64,000 nucleotides of DNA, from positions 1-64,000 of the IMG/VR virus record IMGVR_UViG_3300020732_000008. One strand, 5' to 3'. The notes under the pieces are model-generated. The model was not told the origin of the DNA, did no database searches, and worked only from the letters and a program-made list of their open reading frames with translations. Positions within the stretch are counted from its first letter, which is position 1. Each line of letters begins with the position of its first letter. Both the position numbers and the translations under genes were made by a program. This document shows, in pieces, positions 3,971 to 43,936 of the stretch. The DNA comes from a virus.

Positions 3971-5024
3971 CTTCGACCGCTGGTACTAAGATCTTTGGTT
4001 GATCTTTAAGGGTATCTAGAACAGCCTTACTTAGCTCTTCACTGAGATCAATCTCTTCACGAATAGAATCGATTAGAGCTTGAGCGCCTTGCCATTTACG
4101 ATCGCCATAGTATAACCAACCACCACGACGCTCGACGATCCCATTGAGGATAGACAAAGCAACGATTTCCTTACCCCTATCATACTCTCCTTCTGAGAGT
4201 ACTCCGCCATTGGCAAAGTAGAAGTCCAGGTAAGCGGTCTGTTGAGGTGGGAAAGTCTTATTTTTAATAGTACGGACACGGATGGTCTGGCCTACACGGC
4301 GCTTATCTTGACCTGTTCCGGTCTCTAACCACACATCTCGCTTTACCTCACAACGAATGCTGTAGGCATAGTCCTTGCCCAAGCCACCAGGGGTCGTACG
4401 AGGATCGCCATGCATGACGCCGATCTTCATACGGTACTGGTTAATCATGATCCCTAGTACGGGGCGTTCTTCTTCAACCAAGTCTCTCTTTGTTGCTGAC
4501 GCAACTTTTCTGAAGAACTTGTTGGTGATGAGGGCGCCACGTCCGACTGTGAACTCTTCCATACTCTTTTCGTCCTCGGCACTAGGCACCAAGCCAGGTA
4601 AGCTATCAATGACCACAATGTCGACAGCTTTCGATTCCATGAATTGAATAACCGCATCAAAGGCATCCTCCATACTTGTTGTCTCTACGACAATGACACG
4701 CTTTGTGTCTACTCCGCATATTTCTGCATAGTCTCTATCAAAGTTTTCAGCAGCAATCCATACAGCTGTAAAGTCTGGATTGATTGCCTGGTTTGTTGCA
4801 ATAGTCTTTAGCGCTATGGCTGTCTTACCATGGGAGGCTTCCCCGATAATTTCTACCCAATGATTCATTGGCCAGCCACCACCTAGGACAACATCCAGGG
4901 TGAGTGATCCGGTAGGAATTCTCTTAGGCGTATGGATCTGATCAGCAGTTACTACTGTATTAGCTCCAAGCTTTTTATTGATCTGTGCGACTACCTTAAG
5001 GGCGTCTGAGTTAATTACAGCCAT
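3960..5024 (-). CDS. recA: RecA-like recombinase
   Basis: 354 residues with a clear RecA core. Walker A is GEASHGKT at residues 61-68, Walker B is VDIVVIDSLPG near 134-145, and the DNA-binding loop region reads INQYRMKIGVMHGDPRTTPGG near 195-215, closely matching the NQ-R-KIG-GDP-TTPGG pattern of bacterial RecA. The C-terminal acidic tail (VEDED) is also typical. Expected role: strand exchange in phage recombination and replication restart. It is immediately followed by the Hjc-like nuclease. Confidence 0.93.
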   Translation of the reverse strand: MAVINSDALKVVAQINKKLGANTVVTADQIHTPKRIPTGSLTLDVVLGGGWPMNHWVEIIGEASHGKTAIALKTIATNQAINPDFTAVWIAAENFDRDYAEICGVDTKRVIVVETTSMEDAFDAVIQFMESKAVDIVVIDSLPGLVPSAEDEKSMEEFTVGRGALITNKFFRKVASATKRDLVEEERPVLGIMINQYRMKIGVMHGDPRTTPGGLGKDYAYSIRCEVKRDVWLETGTGQDKRRVGQTIRVRTIKNKTFPPQQTAYLDFYFANGGVLSEGEYDRGKEIVALSILNGIVERRGGWLYYGDRKWQGAQALIDSIREEIDLSEELSKAVLDTLKDQPKILVPAVEDED

Positions 5025-26879: not shown

Positions 26880-28666
26880 TACTTCTTACCCTTCACTGAA
26901 GCCTTAGTTGTAGCAACCTTTGGAACAACTGCATTGGCTGTAGCAGCTGCAGTAGTTGCATCGGTTGATCCAAATACAGGAATACGCATAGCTTGAATAT
27001 CTACCGTAGTTAACATAGGGACCATGTTTGCTGTAAACATAACGTGGTTAACATTTATAGAGCTAAGAGAGATCTTGTAACGAAGGTTGTCATGGAATCT
27101 AATCCAACATGGGATACCCGTGATATATCCAAAGTCTGAGCTTTTATCATTCATGGTCAATAACTCGCCTGAAGCAGCTTGCGGATCACCGTTAAGCAGT
27201 CTGTATAAGAACTCTAGGTCGTATTCTGTTCCACGATTGATTAAACCGGCAACCTCTGTAGGTGTAAGAGTTCTAGGATAGTTCTTTGAATAAGAACCGG
27301 TTATTCCTGAAAGCTCTGTCATATCTGCAATTCGGTTTAAGTAAAGAGTAAAGCTGACTGTGGTATTACCACCAATAGTATTGGCTGGATCTGCAGATGC
27401 TTGGGTCCAGTCAATTGGACTAGTAACAGTAGTGTTGTAAGAAATAGTTGTAGGGTTATAAGCAAACCTAAACTTATAGGCATTGGGGCTTTGAGACTTC
27501 CAGTTGATATTGTTTGGATCAGAGAAGAAGTATCCTAAATTATTGTTTAGATCAGCATAGCCAGCAAATCCAGTTAAACGCTTTGTAAGCGGCACATCTC
27601 TAGTTAAAAAATGATTAGGAGGATTAGTAATGAACTTATCATCCATTGTATTATTGGCATAGTTATTTATATTGGGGTTTGTTGTAGTGGTTCCAGCAGA
27701 ACTAGGTCCGGTGGGATTTGTAGCGGGGCTAGGGCTACAGTTAAGCTGAGATGTAATATAGGCTTTAGCTGCTTTAAATGAGGAACCAGCATGATTAAGG
27801 CTTACTAACTCAGAGTTAGGGTTAAGGGTAGTTGGGCTTGAGAGCTTGTTTCCATATCCATCCCAAGCATCTACGTAAAAGTTATAGAAACTATTTATAG
27901 GTGGGGTAGTAGAGTACTCATACCGCATAGTAAGCCAACGCTTATTGCAAGGATCGTACCCACCAATACCTCCATACATAGCTAAAGCATCGAGGACTTC
28001 TTGAGGAGCTTGTCCGGTATTCTTTCCACCTGCAGAAAAGGTTACTGGCTTTGGGGTGTAGAAAAGCTGAGACGTTGGAACATCAATATTGCTATTAGTG
28101 CTATTTTCATCAACATAAGTATTAGCTTTTAATACAACACCCACATCAGGAATTCCAATGTAACCGGTTGCATTAGGAAGGGGAACTACCTCTATATAAA
28201 ACGCATCACCATGAAATGTGCTGCGGTATGCACCACGTTGAAGAGTTGCTGTAGGGTCTACCGGGATAGCGGTAGAGGAAAGATCATCGTTTCCATGCAC
28301 TGTATTAACAGCGTAGATCTTTGCTACTTTTTTTAATCCGGCAATCCAGGTGTCAAGGCTTTCCCCAGACGTATTTGGTATGGAAATAACATCATTAGTA
28401 AGAGAGGTTCCGTTAGTTGCCAGATCGTTCATCTGTGAGGTTGTTAAAGCAGTCGTTTGATTTGGGTATGTAATGCCGCTCCAAACACGGATGACATACA
28501 TTACATACTGCCCGTTGTTTACAGTTCCATTAGTTAATGGCAACCATCCGCCATTAGATCCAAAGTACTTAAACGCAGGGTTGGAGGAAGTAATGGGGGT
28601 AACCGTAATAGCCGGGTCACTAACAAACGCTTCAATAGTATAAAAGGCTTTTGTATCGTATGACAT
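26879..28666 (-). CDS. Tail tube-baseplate adaptor, 595 aa
   Basis: The N-terminal 300 residues are Thr/Asn/Gly-rich and beta-like. The C-terminal region contains YKFRFAYNPTTISYNT and DLEFLYRLLNGD, which resembles the N-terminal FxFNP-type motif of contractile-injection-system tube or LysM adaptor proteins. The gene lies between tape measure and LysM-like genes. Its exact role (initiator of the tail tube or hub adaptor) is inferred. Confidence 0.6.
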   Translation of the reverse strand: MSYDTKAFYTIEAFVSDPAITVTPITSSNPAFKYFGSNGGWLPLTNGTVNNGQYVMYVIRVWSGITYPNQTTALTTSQMNDLATNGTSLTNDVISIPNTSGESLDTWIAGLKKVAKIYAVNTVHGNDDLSSTAIPVDPTATLQRGAYRSTFHGDAFYIEVVPLPNATGYIGIPDVGVVLKANTYVDENSTNSNIDVPTSQLFYTPKPVTFSAGGKNTGQAPQEVLDALAMYGGIGGYDPCNKRWLTMRYEYSTTPPINSFYNFYVDAWDGYGNKLSSPTTLNPNSELVSLNHAGSSFKAAKAYITSQLNCSPSPATNPTGPSSAGTTTTNPNINNYANNTMDDKFITNPPNHFLTRDVPLTKRLTGFAGYADLNNNLGYFFSDPNNINWKSQSPNAYKFRFAYNPTTISYNTTVTSPIDWTQASADPANTIGGNTTVSFTLYLNRIADMTELSGITGSYSKNYPRTLTPTEVAGLINRGTEYDLEFLYRLLNGDPQAASGELLTMNDKSSDFGYITGIPCWIRFHDNLRYKISLSSINVNHVMFTANMVPMLTTVDIQAMRIPVFGSTDATTAAATANAVVPKVATTKASVKGKK

Positions 28667-31569
28667 TAGACGCTCGCAATTCCCTTACGTCGTAGCTGCT
28701 GATGCAGCTGCCTGTTAAATTCATTCACCATATCGTTAGCACCCTGAACGCTCGCCGTTGCAATATTTACATTCATCTGAACTTTAATGTTTACCTGCTG
28801 ATTAGCATTAAAGGATGTGCTTGTAGGCATTCCATACGCACCCTTAGATGCACCCACTTCAGCAAGAGACATGCTTGGAGCAGAACTGCCGCCCACACCG
28901 TATCCATCTGACTTAGCTGTTAGCTGAGCGTCATAAAGGTATTTAGAGAACTCTCCGCCGGTATAGGTAGACCAGGCATTCCAATTAGTTCCGTGGTTAC
29001 TCTTATCCCAAGCAGCTTTAATATTATACGCTGGGTTTTGAAGTCTACTTGCGTCTCTATCTGGATCGTTCCATTTCTTCCAATCCTTTAAAGAACGAAT
29101 CTGGAATAAGCCAACGCTTGGACCCCACTTGCTATCTTCAAGCTTTACATCACCAATAGCATTTGGTCGACCTTGAGACTCTGCAAGTGAAACAGCAAAT
29201 GCAGTAGAAAGGGCTTTTCCACGAAATCCCTGTGCATACAGCATCCTCATGTATGCCCCTCGGCTGCCTCCAGGCATGCCCTTTACATCTCCAGGTACAA
29301 GATTGATGGTGCTATCAATCAATGGGGTTCCATCTGTTGCAGAAAGCTTTGAGCTGTTACCCAAGGTATTTAACATGTCGCTGTAGTTGAGTGGGTTACC
29401 TGCCATCATCGCACTAGCTAGCTGCGATGGTAGTCCTACAGAGTTTAAGATTCCTGGATCAGAGATAGTGTCAATACTGACTGATTTATTATTAGCACCC
29501 TTAGCTGGGGCACCCATGGCTGTAGGAAGCGGTGGTGAAAACTTAGAGCTTCCTGCTCCAATATATTTAGATGGATCAACACGGCCCTGTGCACCGACGC
29601 CACCGTTATCACGAAGTTCAAAGTGAAGATGCGGACCAGTTGAATTACCAGCTCCAGGGGTTCCTGGCTTACCACCAGAGAGTCCGATCTCTTCACCCTT
29701 ACGAATCTTCTGTCCAGAGTGAACCTTGACCTGAGAAAGGTGGGCATAGAGAGTTGATTTCTTACCGTGGGTAATGATTACGTAATTTCCGTAATCCTTA
29801 TCTAGGCCTGTATAGGAAACAACGCCATCAGCCGCAGCATGTACTGGTGTGCGGGGTTGAACGGCGTAATCAATACCTGTATGTGAAGTCCACTTAGATG
29901 GGTTGTGGGGATCACGGCGCTTACCGAAGCCTGAGCTTACGGCGTGCTTATCTGTGGGGTAGTTCATCTCTGGGCTGCCACTAGATGCGGCTGTACCCAT
30001 TCCTGGGGCTGCATTACCGCCCTGGAATAATCCCTGGATTAGACCCGCACCTGCTCCTAAAACGGCTCCTATGGCCGTTCCAGGGCCCGGAAGGATGCTT
30101 CCTATGGAAGCGCCTATAAGAGCGTCTATGCCCATGTCAGCGGCCGTGTTACCGACCTTTTTGACTGTCTTATTCTTGGCTAATCCAGTGTTATCCAGAC
30201 CGCCCTTAAGAAGACTTGCCAAGGCAGCCAAGCCGGCTAGTCCTCCGGCTTTACCTAAACGTCCCGCAATTCCAGCCCCGCCCTTGGCTGTACCGACTGT
30301 GTATCCCTGACCTGGAAAGTTTTCTGCAGCAGCAATCGGATTGTTCTGAGAACTAAGCATCTGTGATAGAGCACGGTTTTGAAGAGCTCCATAACCAAAG
30401 CTCATACCTGCCCCAGCTAATGTGGAGATGGTTGCTCCAGGACCACCAAGTCCTGGGAAGGTTTCAAGAACGCCTTTAAGCTTTCCAAATAGATCGACAA
30501 CTCCAGGAAGGGTATTGGCTAATCCAGCCATGCCGTTATTAATCGAGGCAGCTGTGTTAAGGGAGGTGTTGTATCCAGATACAAGTCCGCCGCTCATTGC
30601 GGTGGTTACATTAGATGTACTTGTATTGTAATTAAACTGAGCGGCTAAAGGACTTCCTGCCCCAACCTTCATTAGTCCAAGAGCAGATGTAGATCCGCTT
30701 AGATCTGATTTACTTAAACCAGAACCCTTTGATGCACGAGCAACAATACCTGCTTGAATGCTCGCCATGAGGTCTGGGTTGCCGCCAGCAATCTGTGCAA
30801 TAGTGTTATAGCCCTTGCTGTTAGGGTTGTAAACCATCTGAGCTTGATCAAGGGTTACAGTCTTACCACTATATAAAAAGTTATATACACCATTGATGAT
30901 GTCGTTGATTGGCTTAAGAGAGCCATCAGGATTACGAGCGGTCACACCAACTCGTAAGAAGTTCATGCCGTTAATTCCGGAGAGTCCAGCAGCTACTTGC
31001 TGATTGCTTCCTCCAGTAAGTGCGCTAAGTCCACCTACAGCCCCCATAATATTTTTGGAGCTCATGGTGTTGGCTAAATAACCACCACTATATGCAGCAG
31101 TGGCCATCGCTTGAATAGGGCCGGTAGCACTAGTGGCTCCGTTACCTACGGCTTTATTAGCCGCTTGCATTGCCTGCATAGCAGACATGCCACTAAGGCC
31201 TGCAAATGTATCTGCAGTCATACGCTGGGTTACAGCGTTCATCGTTGAAGGCATCATGCCCATACCGATGCTACCTACTGTTGCTACAGCGGCAATTCCA
31301 CCTGCAACCTTTTCAGCAGTTGTATATGGGACATTCGGCATAGTTCCCATGCCGATGTTTCCACTACCAGTGTTGTTACCATTTTTACCAACACTGCCTA
31401 GGGACTTAGCAATATTGTTTGCAGACTTTTCCATCTGCAACATCAGCTTTAAGCTGACATTAAAGCCCTTGTTTACTTTATTAAAGAAAGAGTCAAGACC
31501 AGCGTTTGAGCCCAGGGCAAGTGCACCCCCCGAGTCGGAAGGCATCTGCATATTGCCGTATGCGGCCAT
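28666..31569 (-). CDS. Tape measure protein with M23 peptidase and transglycosylase-like domains
   Basis: 967 residues. The N-terminal two fifths are Ala/Gly/Met-rich and helical with hydrophobic stretches (about 88-106 and 485-522), as in tape measure proteins. Residues about 535-665 form an M23 peptidase with HTGIDY near 561 and HLHFE near 646. Residues about 770-880 resemble a lytic transglycosylase (SLAESQG near 795 and SVGLFQI near 815). Such domains help the tail pass through peptidoglycan. It starts right at the end of the frameshift product of the chaperone (TAATG). Confidence 0.92.
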   Translation of the reverse strand: MAAYGNMQMPSDSGGALALGSNAGLDSFFNKVNKGFNVSLKLMLQMEKSANNIAKSLGSVGKNGNNTGSGNIGMGTMPNVPYTTAEKVAGGIAAVATVGSIGMGMMPSTMNAVTQRMTADTFAGLSGMSAMQAMQAANKAVGNGATSATGPIQAMATAAYSGGYLANTMSSKNIMGAVGGLSALTGGSNQQVAAGLSGINGMNFLRVGVTARNPDGSLKPINDIINGVYNFLYSGKTVTLDQAQMVYNPNSKGYNTIAQIAGGNPDLMASIQAGIVARASKGSGLSKSDLSGSTSALGLMKVGAGSPLAAQFNYNTSTSNVTTAMSGGLVSGYNTSLNTAASINNGMAGLANTLPGVVDLFGKLKGVLETFPGLGGPGATISTLAGAGMSFGYGALQNRALSQMLSSQNNPIAAAENFPGQGYTVGTAKGGAGIAGRLGKAGGLAGLAALASLLKGGLDNTGLAKNKTVKKVGNTAADMGIDALIGASIGSILPGPGTAIGAVLGAGAGLIQGLFQGGNAAPGMGTAASSGSPEMNYPTDKHAVSSGFGKRRDPHNPSKWTSHTGIDYAVQPRTPVHAAADGVVSYTGLDKDYGNYVIITHGKKSTLYAHLSQVKVHSGQKIRKGEEIGLSGGKPGTPGAGNSTGPHLHFELRDNGGVGAQGRVDPSKYIGAGSSKFSPPLPTAMGAPAKGANNKSVSIDTISDPGILNSVGLPSQLASAMMAGNPLNYSDMLNTLGNSSKLSATDGTPLIDSTINLVPGDVKGMPGGSRGAYMRMLYAQGFRGKALSTAFAVSLAESQGRPNAIGDVKLEDSKWGPSVGLFQIRSLKDWKKWNDPDRDASRLQNPAYNIKAAWDKSNHGTNWNAWSTYTGGEFSKYLYDAQLTAKSDGYGVGGSSAPSMSLAEVGASKGAYGMPTSTSFNANQQVNIKVQMNVNIATASVQGANDMVNEFNRQLHQQLRRKGIASV

Positions 31570-32526
31570 TACTTCACCCTAGGTCTCTCTATGGCTTTGT
31601 TAATCCAAAGCATTCTTTCTCTGACAGAGAGATTGCGGATCTCAGTTAAAGTCCAACCAGGATAATTCTGAGCCAGAATATCGTAGGTCTGGATTACTAG
31701 ATCGTAATCAATCTCACTCTTGAAACAACTCTGCCAACGTAAGTGGCATCGGGACCTCCGACCCGCAGAACTTACATGGCACTGTTACTTCGCTGAGTTG
31801 TGGACCTGGGTTGCGATCTGATATAGCCTTAAGGATATCCCGGCGGTCTTTGATACTGAGCTGACGAACCTGCTCCGTATCCATGACAGGGAGACCATTA
31901 ATGGTCTTAACGCAGCTCTTGAGTACGAGGGTGTCTAATTCAGCTGCGGTCTTATTGGATGAGTTTACTATAGCTTTCTGTGTAATACCGTTTGGAAGAG
32001 ATACTTCTACCTCACCAATCTTGCACTTAAGAGTGAAAAGGCGATCACCGTCTAGCTTTTTAACCTTAACGTCTTTGTTAAGATCAATAGATACTTCTTG
32101 AACGTCTGAAGAACATGGGCAGATATTTCCTTCAAAATTAATCTCATCACCAAAGGTGACACGACGAATCGTAAGGAGGATAAGCTCACGGTCTCCAGCT
32201 AGTAACATATCGAGTGTATCCCGATCTACTGCTTTTTCACCAAGCTTTACTACTGCTCGTTCTAGGATGGCAAGGAGGGCTTTGCCTGTATCTCCAGCTT
32301 TTGCAATAGCTTCTTCATCTGCTCCGTTTAGTTCACGAACTTCTGCAGTTCCAATAAATCCATCAAATGGATCCATTAATCCTGCAGCCAACTCTACGTG
32401 AGTATCAGGAGGCGTCTCAACACGCTTCTTAGCGGGTTTAGCTACCGCCTCCTGAGCCTCTAATGCTTCTGCGACCATCTTATTCGCAAGTTGTGGATTA
32501 TTAATTGCACTTACTTCGTTAGTCAT
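31569..32526 (-). CDS. Tail assembly chaperone, predicted +1 frameshift product
   Basis: Reading on in the +1 frame from UUU C (31722-31725) gives a further 50 residues, including LVIQTYDILAQ, GWTLTEIRNLSVRERMLWI and an ERPRVK end, stopping at TAA 31569-31571 right before the tape measure ATG. The extension has no ATG, GTG or TTG start early enough to be made alone and is protein-like. The zero frame UUU can slip to UUC on the same tRNA-Phe. The fusion would have about 318 residues, analogous to lambda gpG/gpGT. Based on sequence reasoning only. Confidence 0.78.
31714..32526 (-). CDS. T4-baseplate-like tail assembly chaperone, zero-frame product
   Basis: 270 residues. Contains VRELNGADEEAIAKA, DRELILLTIRRVTFGDE, CPCSSDVQEVSIDLNKDV and a C-terminal CKFCG, the layout of the T4-baseplate/gp26-type family with paired cysteines for zinc. 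It sits between tube and tape measure genes, the place of tail assembly chaperones. The gene reads out at a UGA, but a +1 shift just before would add 50 residues (next entry). Confidence 0.8.
   Translation of the reverse strand: MTNEVSAINNPQLANKMVAEALEAQEAVAKPAKKRVETPPDTHVELAAGLMDPFDGFIGTAEVRELNGADEEAIAKAGDTGKALLAILERAVVKLGEKAVDRDTLDMLLAGDRELILLTIRRVTFGDEINFEGNICPCSSDVQEVSIDLNKDVKVKKLDGDRLFTLKCKIGEVEVSLPNGITQKAIVNSSNKTAAELDTLVLKSCVKTINGLPVMDTEQVRQLSIKDRRDILKAISDRNPGPQLSEVTVPCKFCGSEVPMPLTLAELFQE
31722..31725 (-). other. Candidate +1 slippery site UUU C
   Basis: In the transcript the codons read UUG UUU CAA GAG UGA. A +1 slip of tRNA-Phe from UUU to UUC brings AAG into the A site and opens the 50-codon extension. 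The zero-frame UGA follows two codons later. The new frame is closed about 20 codons upstream by TAA, so the shift must occur in the final 70 bases of the zero frame; this site is the best candidate. Confidence 0.55.
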
Positions 32527-32551: not shown

Positions 32552-33187
32552 TTAAGCTGAAGGAAGGGTCTGTGCTCCACCTGCAGTTGTATAGTCCTGA
32601 GCGTATGAAACGTCAAAGCCTTCATGAACAACCTGAATTTCTTCAACCATGAGGGTGTTAGCACCGGCATCAAGGTTGCTGTAGCTGAGGTTTGTGATCC
32701 ATGCGTTATAGACTTTGAAGCGCAGTGATACATGCTGATCTGTTGGATTTCCAGCAACTCCTCCATTAAGGTTAGTTGTGCCCTGTGGGTTAGGGTGGCT
32801 GAGTACTGCGATGTCAATTGTGCAACGGAAATCTGCGCCAATTCCTGTTGTAGCATCTCCACTGAGTACTGTAAACAAACGCTTCATCCACATTGGGTTT
32901 GCATCCTGTGCAAGCATTACACCCTTAGAAAAGCTAATAGGTGTAAAAGAAGTCTGACCAGGAATCTGGTGGAAGTTCGTGTTATATCCACCTTCACGGT
33001 AAGCGATTGCTTCAGTAGCAATACTCAAACCAGAAGCTGATACGAATCCCATAGTTGCCCAGGCCTTATTTGCAGATGCCCATGTAGAGTCTTGTGCATG
33101 GGGGCTAAACGTAACCAAGAACTTAAAGTTACGAACTGGATCCGTAGCAAGTGTGCTAAACGGATTAGTGATTGGACCGTTAGTCAT
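32552..33187 (-). CDS. Tail tube protein
   Basis: 211 residues. FKFLVTFSPH, then SASGLSIATEAIAYREGG and TSFTPISFSKGV, are characteristic of T4 gp19-type tube proteins. It is preceded by the sheath gene and followed by the chaperone and tape measure genes, the standard order. It would polymerise to the inner tail tube. Confidence 0.93.
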   Translation of the reverse strand: MTNGPITNPFSTLATDPVRNFKFLVTFSPHAQDSTWASANKAWATMGFVSASGLSIATEAIAYREGGYNTNFHQIPGQTSFTPISFSKGVMLAQDANPMWMKRLFTVLSGDATTGIGADFRCTIDIAVLSHPNPQGTTNLNGGVAGNPTDQHVSLRFKVYNAWITNLSYSNLDAGANTLMVEEIQVVHEGFDVSYAQDYTTAGGAQTLPSA

Positions 33188-33201: not shown

Positions 33202-34758
33202 TTACGCCGTAGCGTTTCCGGTAAGTTGTCCCAACTTGATGACAACAAACTCTGCTGGGTATTCAATAGCTACGCCTATTTCGACATTTACAATGCCGTT
33301 CTGGATATCTGCATCGCTGTTATTAGTAGCGTTACAAGTTACATAAAAGGCCTGGCTTGGATCTGTTCCACGAAGTCCACCCTGCTGCCAATATCCACGA
33401 AGGAAGGTAGAGAGTGAGGTTGTGATGCGTCCCCATAGAATTGAGTCATTATTCTCAAACAGAGCAAATGCGCTGCGCTGTTCAAGCTCTGTCTTCAAGT
33501 ACATGATAGAACGACGAACGTTGATGTAGCGGTTAGATGTGGTGTTGTTCATGGTACGAGCGCCCATGATTACGATTCCACTACCTGGGATCTGACGGAT
33601 AGCATTGATTGGTTCTGTACCAGTATTCAATGTATCAAGGTCAGAGTTAGAAAGCTGGGTCTGTGTTGCAACAGCCAGTGCAATTCGGTTGCTGAATCCT
33701 GCTGGTGCTTTAAAGACACCACGTGCTGAATCGGTAGCAATGTACTGGCCGATTGCTGCAGCTCCAGGAGCTTGATTACGAAGTGCGCCACGAGCAGCCT
33801 TTGTTGTATCTGGAATACTGATCCAAGGATAGTAGAGGGCTGCAACTTCACCAGCAGAAGAACCTGCAAATGGTGATGTAGCTTTAAGGTCAGAAGCATA
33901 CTGCTTAGCATCTGATACTGCAAGTCCTGATGGAACGTCACAGACTACAAAACAGTTTTCACGACCGGCTGCATATGCAACAGCATCTGCCTGAAGCTGT
34001 AGAGACAATGTGCGATCTCCTGAGCTTCCACCTGAGGTGTACTGGTAAGCAGCCTGAGGAATGTTAAATACTAATGGATTCTGAATAGGATCAAAGTTAG
34101 TATAAACAGCCTGATAGTTAGCACGTGAAGGTGCTGATCCATCAAGACCACCTGTAAGTGCATGCTGTACTCCGTCAGCTGTAGGGTTGTTTCCTGGAGC
34201 AACTGTTGCAGAGTGCTCGTCAGTTACAACTACATACGCTGAAGATGCATTGATGTATGAGATTGCGTAGCGTGGATCAGTGCTTGACATTGAAAGATCA
34301 GTAAACTGCTCAATAAGAGTTGAAGTTCCACCGATCAATTCATATACGTAGAGAGCAAAACGACCAGCAGCACCGGTATTGATTACCTGAACTGAGAGTG
34401 AGTTGCCCCATGAACCAGCATTAGATGCAGTTACTAGAAGGGTTGACAAAGATGAGCTGTCTGTCAAGACAACTGATGAGGCTGCGGATCCTGAACCTAG
34501 GACACGCTGAACGTAAGCTTGGTTACCGCCATTAGCAAAAAAGTTATAGACAGCCCAAGTGGTTGGATAAGCATCTTGTACATCTCCGAAGCTATCAACA
34601 AACTTCTTCCATGAACGTACGAGTACTGGTGCTGAGGACTTTCCTGAAGGCAATGCTCCAAGGAAAGCGCCAACAGCAGAGCCATTGTCAGTTAGTTCAA
34701 CTGTCTGGCTTACTGGCACTTCTTGTACAAAGACGCCGGGTCTACTAAATGTAGCCAT
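33202..34758 (-). CDS. Tail sheath protein
   Basis: 518 residues. The N-terminus FSRPGVFVQEVPVSQ and WAVYNFFANGGNQAYVQRV are typical sheath sequences, and the C-terminus (NVRRSIMYLKTELEQRSAFALFENND ... VEIGVAIEYPAEFVVIKLGQ) matches the conserved sheath C-domain. Establishes a contractile tail. Strong ribosome binding site (AAGGAG) upstream. Confidence 0.97.
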   Translation of the reverse strand: MATFSRPGVFVQEVPVSQTVELTDNGSAVGAFLGALPSGKSSAPVLVRSWKKFVDSFGDVQDAYPTTWAVYNFFANGGNQAYVQRVLGSGSAASSVVLTDSSSLSTLLVTASNAGSWGNSLSVQVINTGAAGRFALYVYELIGGTSTLIEQFTDLSMSSTDPRYAISYINASSAYVVVTDEHSATVAPGNNPTADGVQHALTGGLDGSAPSRANYQAVYTNFDPIQNPLVFNIPQAAYQYTSGGSSGDRTLSLQLQADAVAYAAGRENCFVVCDVPSGLAVSDAKQYASDLKATSPFAGSSAGEVAALYYPWISIPDTTKAARGALRNQAPGAAAIGQYIATDSARGVFKAPAGFSNRIALAVATQTQLSNSDLDTLNTGTEPINAIRQIPGSGIVIMGARTMNNTTSNRYINVRRSIMYLKTELEQRSAFALFENNDSILWGRITTSLSTFLRGYWQQGGLRGTDPSQAFYVTCNATNNSDADIQNGIVNVEIGVAIEYPAEFVVIKLGQLTGNATA

Positions 34759-42507: not shown

Positions 42508-42849
42508 TTAGGAGAGCTCTGAGCCAAAAGCCTGGAATGCCAAGCCGGTGCTGGTGCTATACGCACCGATTAGATCGTTAGGAGCTAAGGTAATTCCAAG
42601 GGTATAGGTGATAGTTTCACCGGCTGCTACGGAAGCACCGTAAGCGATGTATTGCTTTGTTGAGAGGGTAGCCCCACCCTGACGTACGGCAATGTTATAC
42701 GTGGCAGTGTTACTGCTGGTATTGCATACAGTTATTGTTGAGATTACTGAGCCGAGGACGTTGCTGTTAACTGAGTAGATTACCGACTCATTTGTACCTA
42801 CGCCTGATGTGGGATTAACCTGCCCCAGGATTTTATAAGCTGTTGCCAA
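42508..42849 (-). CDS. Small appendage protein, 113 aa
   Basis: Begins YKILGQVNPTSGVGTNESVIYSV and continues with beta strands (TYNIAVRQGGATL, TYTLGITLAPNDLIGAYS) and ends in LAFQAFGSELS. This pattern is common in phage structural proteins of unknown fine function. It overlaps the glycosyltransferase gene by 17 bases. Confidence 0.58.
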   Translation of the reverse strand: MATAYKILGQVNPTSGVGTNESVIYSVNSNVLGSVISTITVCNTSSNTATYNIAVRQGGATLSTKQYIAYGASVAAGETITYTLGITLAPNDLIGAYSTSTGLAFQAFGSELS

Positions 42850-43936
42850 CTGAAGGCTCCTTTAAATAGAAAGCAAGATTTTGTTGAAGACGTACTTCAT
42901 TTGGTTGCAATTCTACAGCCTTAGTGCCATATTTAATGGCTCTTTCTAAGAGAACTTTAGCCTCTTCAAGATCAGATTCAGTGGTAGATAGGTAATAGCA
43001 GGATATGGCAGCATAATCCCAAGGCTGTGGTCCCCACGCCCATGACTCACATAGGAAATCCAAAGGCTTTTCTTCAATAGATAAAGCTAAAGTAGATGCT
43101 TCTAGGCATTCTTCCCAACGCTTTTCTTCATAGTAAAGCTTAGCCAATTCCACATAAGCTTCACGACGTGCAGGGTCTTCTTCTACAGCTGCCTTAAACC
43201 ACTTGATCATTTCCTCTAAATCTGGGGAAACCATATTAGCTATGTAACGCATAGCTGCAGCACGCTCTGGCTTCCATTGAGCATGGGGCATAGATAGGTA
43301 TCGTTTAAACTCCTCAATTGCTTGAGGATATTGGGTGTGAAAGAAAAGCTCACGGGCATAGTAGAAAGAACTCCGCTCATCATTGGGAGCTTCTTGAACT
43401 GTAAGAGCTAAAAGAGGCAGGTACTGTCCACGTGATTTAGATGCATCAGCACGGTGGTGTATCTCAAGATCAATATACTCTGCCGTCTCTTCAATGCGGT
43501 CTGGGACTAGGATCTCGTGTACGGCATTCTTCCAACGATACCCATGACGTGTGTGGATGTGATCCCCACCAAAGGTTAATCCCGGGGTACCATCTGGATT
43601 AAAGTTCCAAGTGTACTGGTAACGAGGTCGTGTGACCTTGGTCTTTTCAAGAGCCTTACGCCATCCAGGCATAAGCATCTCATCCATATCGACGGATACA
43701 CAATAGTCAATGTTGTCTGGAAGTAGGGCTAGGGCCGCATTACGGGCGTCATCAAACCGCCAAGGCTTAACGCTGATTGTGTGGCACACAATACCAAGGG
43801 ACTTAGCTAGCTCTACGGTTTTATCTGTAGATCCAGTATCAACTATCATAAGATAGTCAGCGTCCTTATTGTGCTGAGCCCAACGAGCTACATGCTGCTC
43901 TTCATTAAGGGCAATAGTGTATACAGCTATTTTCAT
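42833..43936 (-). CDS. Family 2-like glycosyltransferase with TPR-like C-terminus
   Basis: 367 residues. The N-terminal GT-A domain shows IVDTGSTD at residues 31-38 and SVDMDE at 81-86 (DxD for metal and sugar nucleotide). The C-terminal half has helical repeats (YVELAKLYYEEKRWEECLEAS) resembling TPRs. Its place inside the virion genes suggests that it glycosylates phage proteins, but host envelope targets are possible. Confidence 0.88.
   Translation of the reverse strand: MKIAVYTIALNEEQHVARWAQHNKDADYLMIVDTGSTDKTVELAKSLGIVCHTISVKPWRFDDARNAALALLPDNIDYCVSVDMDEMLMPGWRKALEKTKVTRPRYQYTWNFNPDGTPGLTFGGDHIHTRHGYRWKNAVHEILVPDRIEETAEYIDLEIHHRADASKSRGQYLPLLALTVQEAPNDERSSFYYARELFFHTQYPQAIEEFKRYLSMPHAQWKPERAAAMRYIANMVSPDLEEMIKWFKAAVEEDPARREAYVELAKLYYEEKRWEECLEASTLALSIEEKPLDFLCESWAWGPQPWDYAAISCYYLSTTESDLEEAKVLLERAIKYGTKAVELQPNEVRLQQNLAFYLKEPSVGNSL

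Follow-up and report, generated by a model that had tools for sequence, protein, structure and literature searches.

The window analysed here comprises 64,000 nucleotides (positions 1 to 64,000) of the 103,932-base IMG/VR virus record IMGVR_UViG_3300020732_000008 and contains, just upstream of a tape-measure gene, a 270-residue open reading frame (ORF) that by position and homology is a tail assembly chaperone of the type of gp26 and gp51 of phage T4 (PF12322). Comparison with related genomes indicates, with a probability put at about 0.92, that this one gene gives rise to two chaperones: a short form of 270 residues that ends at UGA, and a long form of 318 residues with a gp51-like C-terminal domain that would be made when a minority of ribosomes slips into the +1 frame at UUU_C. 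A preliminary description of the sequence had placed such a frameshift at 31569-31783 without stating a strand; the feature is real and the locus lies entirely on the minus strand. Beyond that description, the analysis adds the strand, the kinship with T4 gp26/gp51, a hairpin upstream of the slip site, the mixture of +1 and -1 shifts in the family and the precedents.

The extension is coding sequence in the +1 frame

The zero-frame ORF reads TTG TTT CAA GAG TGA at its 3' end, and the +1 frame, open from 31784 to 31572, continues for 50 codons past the presumed slip at TTTC (31725-31722) and runs into the tape-measure gene at TAATG; the end at UUU CAA GAG UGA, the 50 open codons and the TAATG junction agree with the preliminary description. 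Alignment with related phages, named there as a check, places the extension in +1 in all 83 relatives in the window's branch whose 3' end is readable (78 from IMG/VR, found by profile search, and five Streptomyces phages, found by tblastn, which have the same layout). Read in the +1 frame, the extension shows 2533 synonymous against 663 non-synonymous single-base codon differences, and its differences fall mostly on the third codon position (1554, 646 and 3290 at positions 1, 2 and 3); read in the zero frame, the same DNA gives 509 synonymous against 3001 non-synonymous. The extension, described earlier as protein-like, evolves as protein in the +1 frame under purifying selection, beyond chance, and the long form is the short form plus a conserved out-of-frame extension.

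It could be argued that the extension forms a small gene of its own with an independent start, given that separate small ORFs are annotated in BRock, LuckySocke, GiJojo and Alone3. This is very improbable on two grounds: the first seven codons of the extension hold no ATG, GTG or TTG in any of 33 diverged relatives (less than 85% identical to each other), and in several of these the first 25 codons hold none, though conservation ([SN]E..Y) starts at codon 2; and the annotated starts fall within the conserved part. In the window, too, the extension frame has no such codon before the internal ATG of 'RERMLW', in agreement with the earlier remark that a usable start is lacking.

Slip site and direction of the shift

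The last phenylalanine codon of the zero frame is TTT in 33 of 33 diverged relatives, so placed that UUU in the P site would have C next in the window and in 28 relatives and U next in five; of 132 other in-frame TTT codons in these genes, 8 have C or T as the next base. The codon after the slip TTT may be CGN (17), CAR (11) or a stop (5), and the zero-frame protein therefore offers no reason for the pyrimidine. The zero-frame stop lies 0, 1, 2 or 3 codons past TTT in 5, 10, 15 and 3 relatives respectively, the window having it two codons further on, and in those relatives in which TTT stands immediately before the stop UUU alone can re-pair in +1. Given that the +1 frame opens merely 4-6 codons upstream in 31 of the 33 representatives, the shift is restricted to a stretch of a few codons in which UUU_Y is always present. 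The sole conserved re-pairing site is UUU with a pyrimidine next, which favours the slip of tRNA-Phe from UUU to UUC that had been proposed from the window. The window has CAA, not CGN, in the A site and shows no canonical -1 heptamer (X_XXY_YYZ) with a -1 extension, its extension being in +1. Comparative evidence for a programmed +1 shift at UUU_Y is strong.

The preliminary description had allowed a -2 shift beside +1, as both reach the same frame, and Mu-type -2 chaperone shifts are known. At the conserved site, however, re-pairing by -2 would meet a middle-base mismatch (UUG UUU to UGU, CUA UUU to UAU) while re-pairing by +1 is always perfect, and of the two only +1 is retained, a -2 shift being highly unlikely. 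The same fusion might in principle be made by slippage of the RNA polymerase rather than of the ribosome, as the T6-T7 runs at the site of another clade could suggest, but the window and its clade have T3-T4 only, shorter than the runs known to cause such slippage, and the probability of this explanation is close to nil.

In the proposed mechanism, most ribosomes would terminate at UGA and release the short form. In a minority, the P-site tRNA-Phe would shift one base on, from UUU to UUC (UUU in some relatives), and these ribosomes would read 50 further codons and so add the gp51-like domain. The nearby stop or a slow next codon may give time for the slip, and a hairpin re-forming at the E site, behind the ribosome, may push it forward, although in the window genome this hairpin is weak. 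By analogy with lambda gpG/gpGT, the short and long forms would then cover the tape measure and bring in subunits of the tail tube.

A hairpin behind the slip codon

Synonymous conservation is highest in the last 30 codons of the gene. A stem lies just 5' of the slip codon, with the arms CCGCTA..TAGCGG in most relatives, CTGCCA..TGGCAG in another sub-clade and CCCAC/CCCGC/CCCAT..GTGGG in the Streptomyces phages. Over 30 loci, the 33 nucleotides 5' of TTT have a more stable fold than their synonymous-codon shuffles (mean z -3.25), and the remaining windows of the gene lie between z -1.0 and +0.5 in the same test. When a hairpin is required to have a helix of at least 5 base pairs, with at least 3 GC pairs, ending within 7 nucleotides of the slip, one is found in 29 of 31 loci (94%) of the window's +1 clade against 12% of control positions, with 14 distinct stems that end 3-7 nucleotides before the slip codon. 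Corresponding values are 32/63 (51%) against 3% in a second +1 clade, with 29 distinct stems, and 6/22 against 1% in a third; the -1 clade has an upstream hairpin in 5/45 (11%) against 6% and more 3' structure instead (z -1.43). This stem-by-stem count was used in place of fixed-column covariation, the tables for which did not converge on one helix, as sub-clades differ in stem register. Downstream RNA structure is not invoked, since the window's clade shows little of it (mean z -1.7 by dinucleotide shuffle and -1.0 by synonymous shuffle). A covarying hairpin stands behind the slip codon in the window's clade, with a candidate role in frameshifting.

The hairpin could alternatively be unrelated to frameshifting and owe its presence to protein codon constraint, to coupling or to attenuation ahead of the tape-measure gene. 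The second +1 clade has a GC hairpin with a T-run after it, which looks like an intrinsic terminator, and the window's hairpin is weak. Nevertheless, the hairpin exceeds synonymous shuffles, keeps a near-fixed spacing to the slip codon and covaries; furthermore, the window's clade is without the T-run and the hairpin is absent from the -1 clade. An unrelated hairpin is unlikely, though it retains appreciable weight.

The last codons are also more complementary to the anti-Shine-Dalgarno sequence than synonymous controls. A Shine-Dalgarno stimulator as in prfB may be present, but the signal overlaps the GCGG arm of the hairpin and the Streptomyces relatives have no Shine-Dalgarno sequence there. 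Further upstream, at the Shine-Dalgarno-like GAGGT (GGAGGT in the IMG/VR loci), Glu is always encoded by GAG (31/31) though GAA is commoner in these genes, and the folded hairpin would bring GAGGT nearer to the slip site.

Kinship with T4 gp26 and gp51

PF12322 and phrog_150, the T4 baseplate/gp26 family, both match the 270-residue ORF, which together with its position upholds the earlier naming of a tail assembly chaperone gene. The T4-type chaperone was itself identified in prior work (Vladimirov, Gautam and Davidson 2022, as cited in PMC10885494 and PMC12846349). Both T4 gp26 and gp51 are members of PF12322, gp51 being the longer and continuing from the end of gp26. Once the +1 extension is added, the phrog_150 match extends from profile position 226 to 265 of 282, and the extension family aligns to the extensions of T4 gp51 and the cyanophages with an hhalign probability of 79% (E 1.6e-5, score 27.3); column-shuffled controls of the extension profile reached a maximum score of 18.2 (n=200), below that value. 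The predicted structure of the zero-frame ORF, made with an alignment of IMG/VR relatives only, has a predicted local distance difference test (pLDDT) score of 85. Its best PDB match is the HK97 tail assembly chaperone (Foldseek probability 0.97, E 0.19; VIA Z 4.0), and its best viral structure matches are T4-like baseplate hub proteins (E 4e-20).

Several points weigh against the interpretation as one gene with two products and a stimulatory hairpin. The match to the HK97 chaperone fold is modest, and the fused long form, folded from a single sequence only, is poorly predicted (pLDDT 38). The relatives share ancestry and the counts given above are not independent events. The window's own stem is short and does not reach significance by itself (z -1.1, p 0.17), and for this reason the role of the hairpin in the window is argued from the relatives. 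Finally, the anti-Shine-Dalgarno complementarity of the last codons may be the GCGG arm of the hairpin itself.

Wider family and change of direction

A wider survey covered the window's branch, three more branches and cyanophage S-RSM4, and found an out-of-frame extension in 261 of 261 loci, in +1 in 196 and in -1 in 65. Several -1 members carry T TTT TTC at a conserved Phe-Phe, the -1 heptamer type being present in jumbo-phage and cyanophage clades, and two +1 branches have mostly TTT TTT TGG or TTT TTT CGT. A tree built on the zero-frame domain (79 rows, LG+G4, quick search) gives full support to the window's branch and shows the +1, -1 and two-gene states clustered; its well-supported branches require the +1/-1 label to have changed two to three times at least. 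It is suggested, with somewhat better than even confidence, that these loci hold a natural class of phage +1 signal in which the ribosome is pushed on by a hairpin that refolds a few nucleotides behind UUU_Y; at least two large clades of T4-type chaperones would use it, and sister clades would have lost the hairpin or never had it and would shift by -1 at T_TTT_TTC, often with 3' structure, the direction having changed several times with the RNA structure switching side.

Some loci depart from these patterns. Locus L159 (2001-2726 and downstream; TTC TTT TGG CCC TCC CGG TAA) has a -1 extension inside an otherwise +1 branch, through either a change of direction or a sequence error. L281-L288, L296 and L301 form a -1 sub-branch in which the short form has a basic tail end and T_TTT_TTC is missing near the stop. 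The +1 members L206, L209, L211 and L215 read TTA TTT/TTC AAT CCC AGT at the Phe-Phe site (L215: CTA TTC AAT CCC AGT), and in these CCC_A may be the slip site instead. In BRock, LuckySocke, GiJojo and pSt2308 the extension either has been given a hypothetical gene of its own, with an internal start, or is unannotated; the extension loci in Streptomyces phages lie at 4342-4524 (L003), 4303-4458 (L004), 4258-4455 (L005) and after 4226 (L006).

Layout of the locus

The gene order, tail tube, chaperone and then tape measure (Table 1), is the one expected of a tail assembly chaperone. An assembly error is unlikely, because two IMG/VR contigs from other samples are identical over 6.8 kb and the same architecture recurs in the 83 relatives. 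No tRNA gene was found in the window. The tape-measure-like protein combines M23 peptidase and SLT_3 lysozyme-like domains and, in the late-gene region, the protein of 42833-43936 strongly matches a phage beta-1,4-glycosyltransferase family (phrog_13126, E 3e-111).

Table 1. Positions of the chaperone locus features and neighbouring tail genes in the window
Feature	Position	Strand	Basis
Contractile tail sheath	33202..34758	-	phrog_23 E 2e-46
Tail tube protein (T4 gp19-like)	32552..33187	-	PF06841 E 2e-19
Zero-frame ORF, 270 residues, short tail assembly chaperone (TAC-N, T4 gp26-like)	31714..32526	-	PF12322 E 7e-8, phrog_150 E 7e-8, predicted fold
GGAGGT, 28 nucleotides 5' of TTT	31754..31759	-	GAGGT invariant in the 34/34 relatives listed
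Putative hairpin, 5' arm TGCCA	31744..31748	-	short stem
Putative hairpin, 3' arm TGGCA, ends 6 nucleotides before TTT	31732..31736	-	short stem
Presumed slip codon TTT, next base C at 31722	31723..31725	-	TTTY in 33/33 diverged relatives
Zero-frame stop TGA, two codons past TTT	31714..31716	-	sequence
+1-frame extension, 50 codons, KSEIDYDLV...PGWTLTEIRNLSVRERMLWINKAIERPRVK, C-terminal part of the predicted long chaperone (TAC-NC, gp51-like)	31572..31721	-	purifying selection, profile match
Extension stop TAA, overlaps tape-measure ATG (31569) as TAATG	31569..31571	-	sequence
Tape-measure-like protein with M23 peptidase and SLT_3 lysozyme domains	28666..31569	-	domain matches

Comparison with known systems

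Chaperone frameshifts are a textbook case of recoding and most of the known ones are -1; to our knowledge, conserved natural +1 signals beyond prfB and antizyme are few. Lambda gpG/gpGT and HK97 gp13 resemble the window in that a short and a long chaperone overlap immediately before the tape-measure gene, but they use a -1 shift, whereas the window has a +1 shift, a chaperone of the PF12322 type and conserved Cys residues. In lambda, the short and long chaperones load the tape measure and recruit the tube protein (PMC5009743). The Vandenendeviridae and Andersonviridae likewise make a short and a long chaperone by slipping at T-rich sequence, GTTTTT, close to where the short gene ends, but in the -1 direction (PMC12846349). 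In T4 the same family occurs as two separate genes, gp26 corresponding to the short form and gp51 to the short form plus a homologous C-terminal extension, where the window would use one gene and a +1 shift.

Forward shifts in chaperone genes have precedents. A +1 shift is known or proposed in HSTV-2 (PMC5009743), and 350 forward sites are among the annotated SEA-PHAGES cases (PMC10885494). Another is the +1 chaperone shift proposed for HF1-like haloviruses at TTT-CGC, which, as in the window, occurs near the stop at UUU followed by C in viruses with contractile tails; these are, however, archaeal viruses, known from six related genomes, and the relevant passages of that report mention no hairpin (PMC7230728). 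The same paper cites UUU_CGN +1 sites in plant amalgaviruses and influenza A PA-X (PMC7230728), which share the re-pairing of UUU to UUC but are read by eukaryotic ribosomes; CGN follows UUU in 17 of 33 relatives, and the window itself has UUU_CAA. In a 70S system, hairpins placed upstream by design stimulate +1 shifting and lower -1 shifting, and they also stimulate +1 in a yeast system (Huang, Cho and Chang 2018, PMC6321510). Those hairpins, too, lie directly behind the slip site, but they are synthetic and act at CUU_UGA, whereas the hairpin of the window's clade would be a natural, conserved candidate.

As far as literature searches reach, what is new is a large unannotated clade of bacterial phages with UUU_Y, a natural hairpin behind the slip and the contrast between these and the -1 clades of one gene. 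The annotation of cultured Streptomyces phages, which treats the extension as a distinct gene with internal starts or misses it, is corrected as well. A single family that keeps the same fusion by a +1 shift, by a -1 shift or, as in T4, by gene duplication, with the hairpin in the +1 clades only, would amount to a natural experiment on the direction of the shift.

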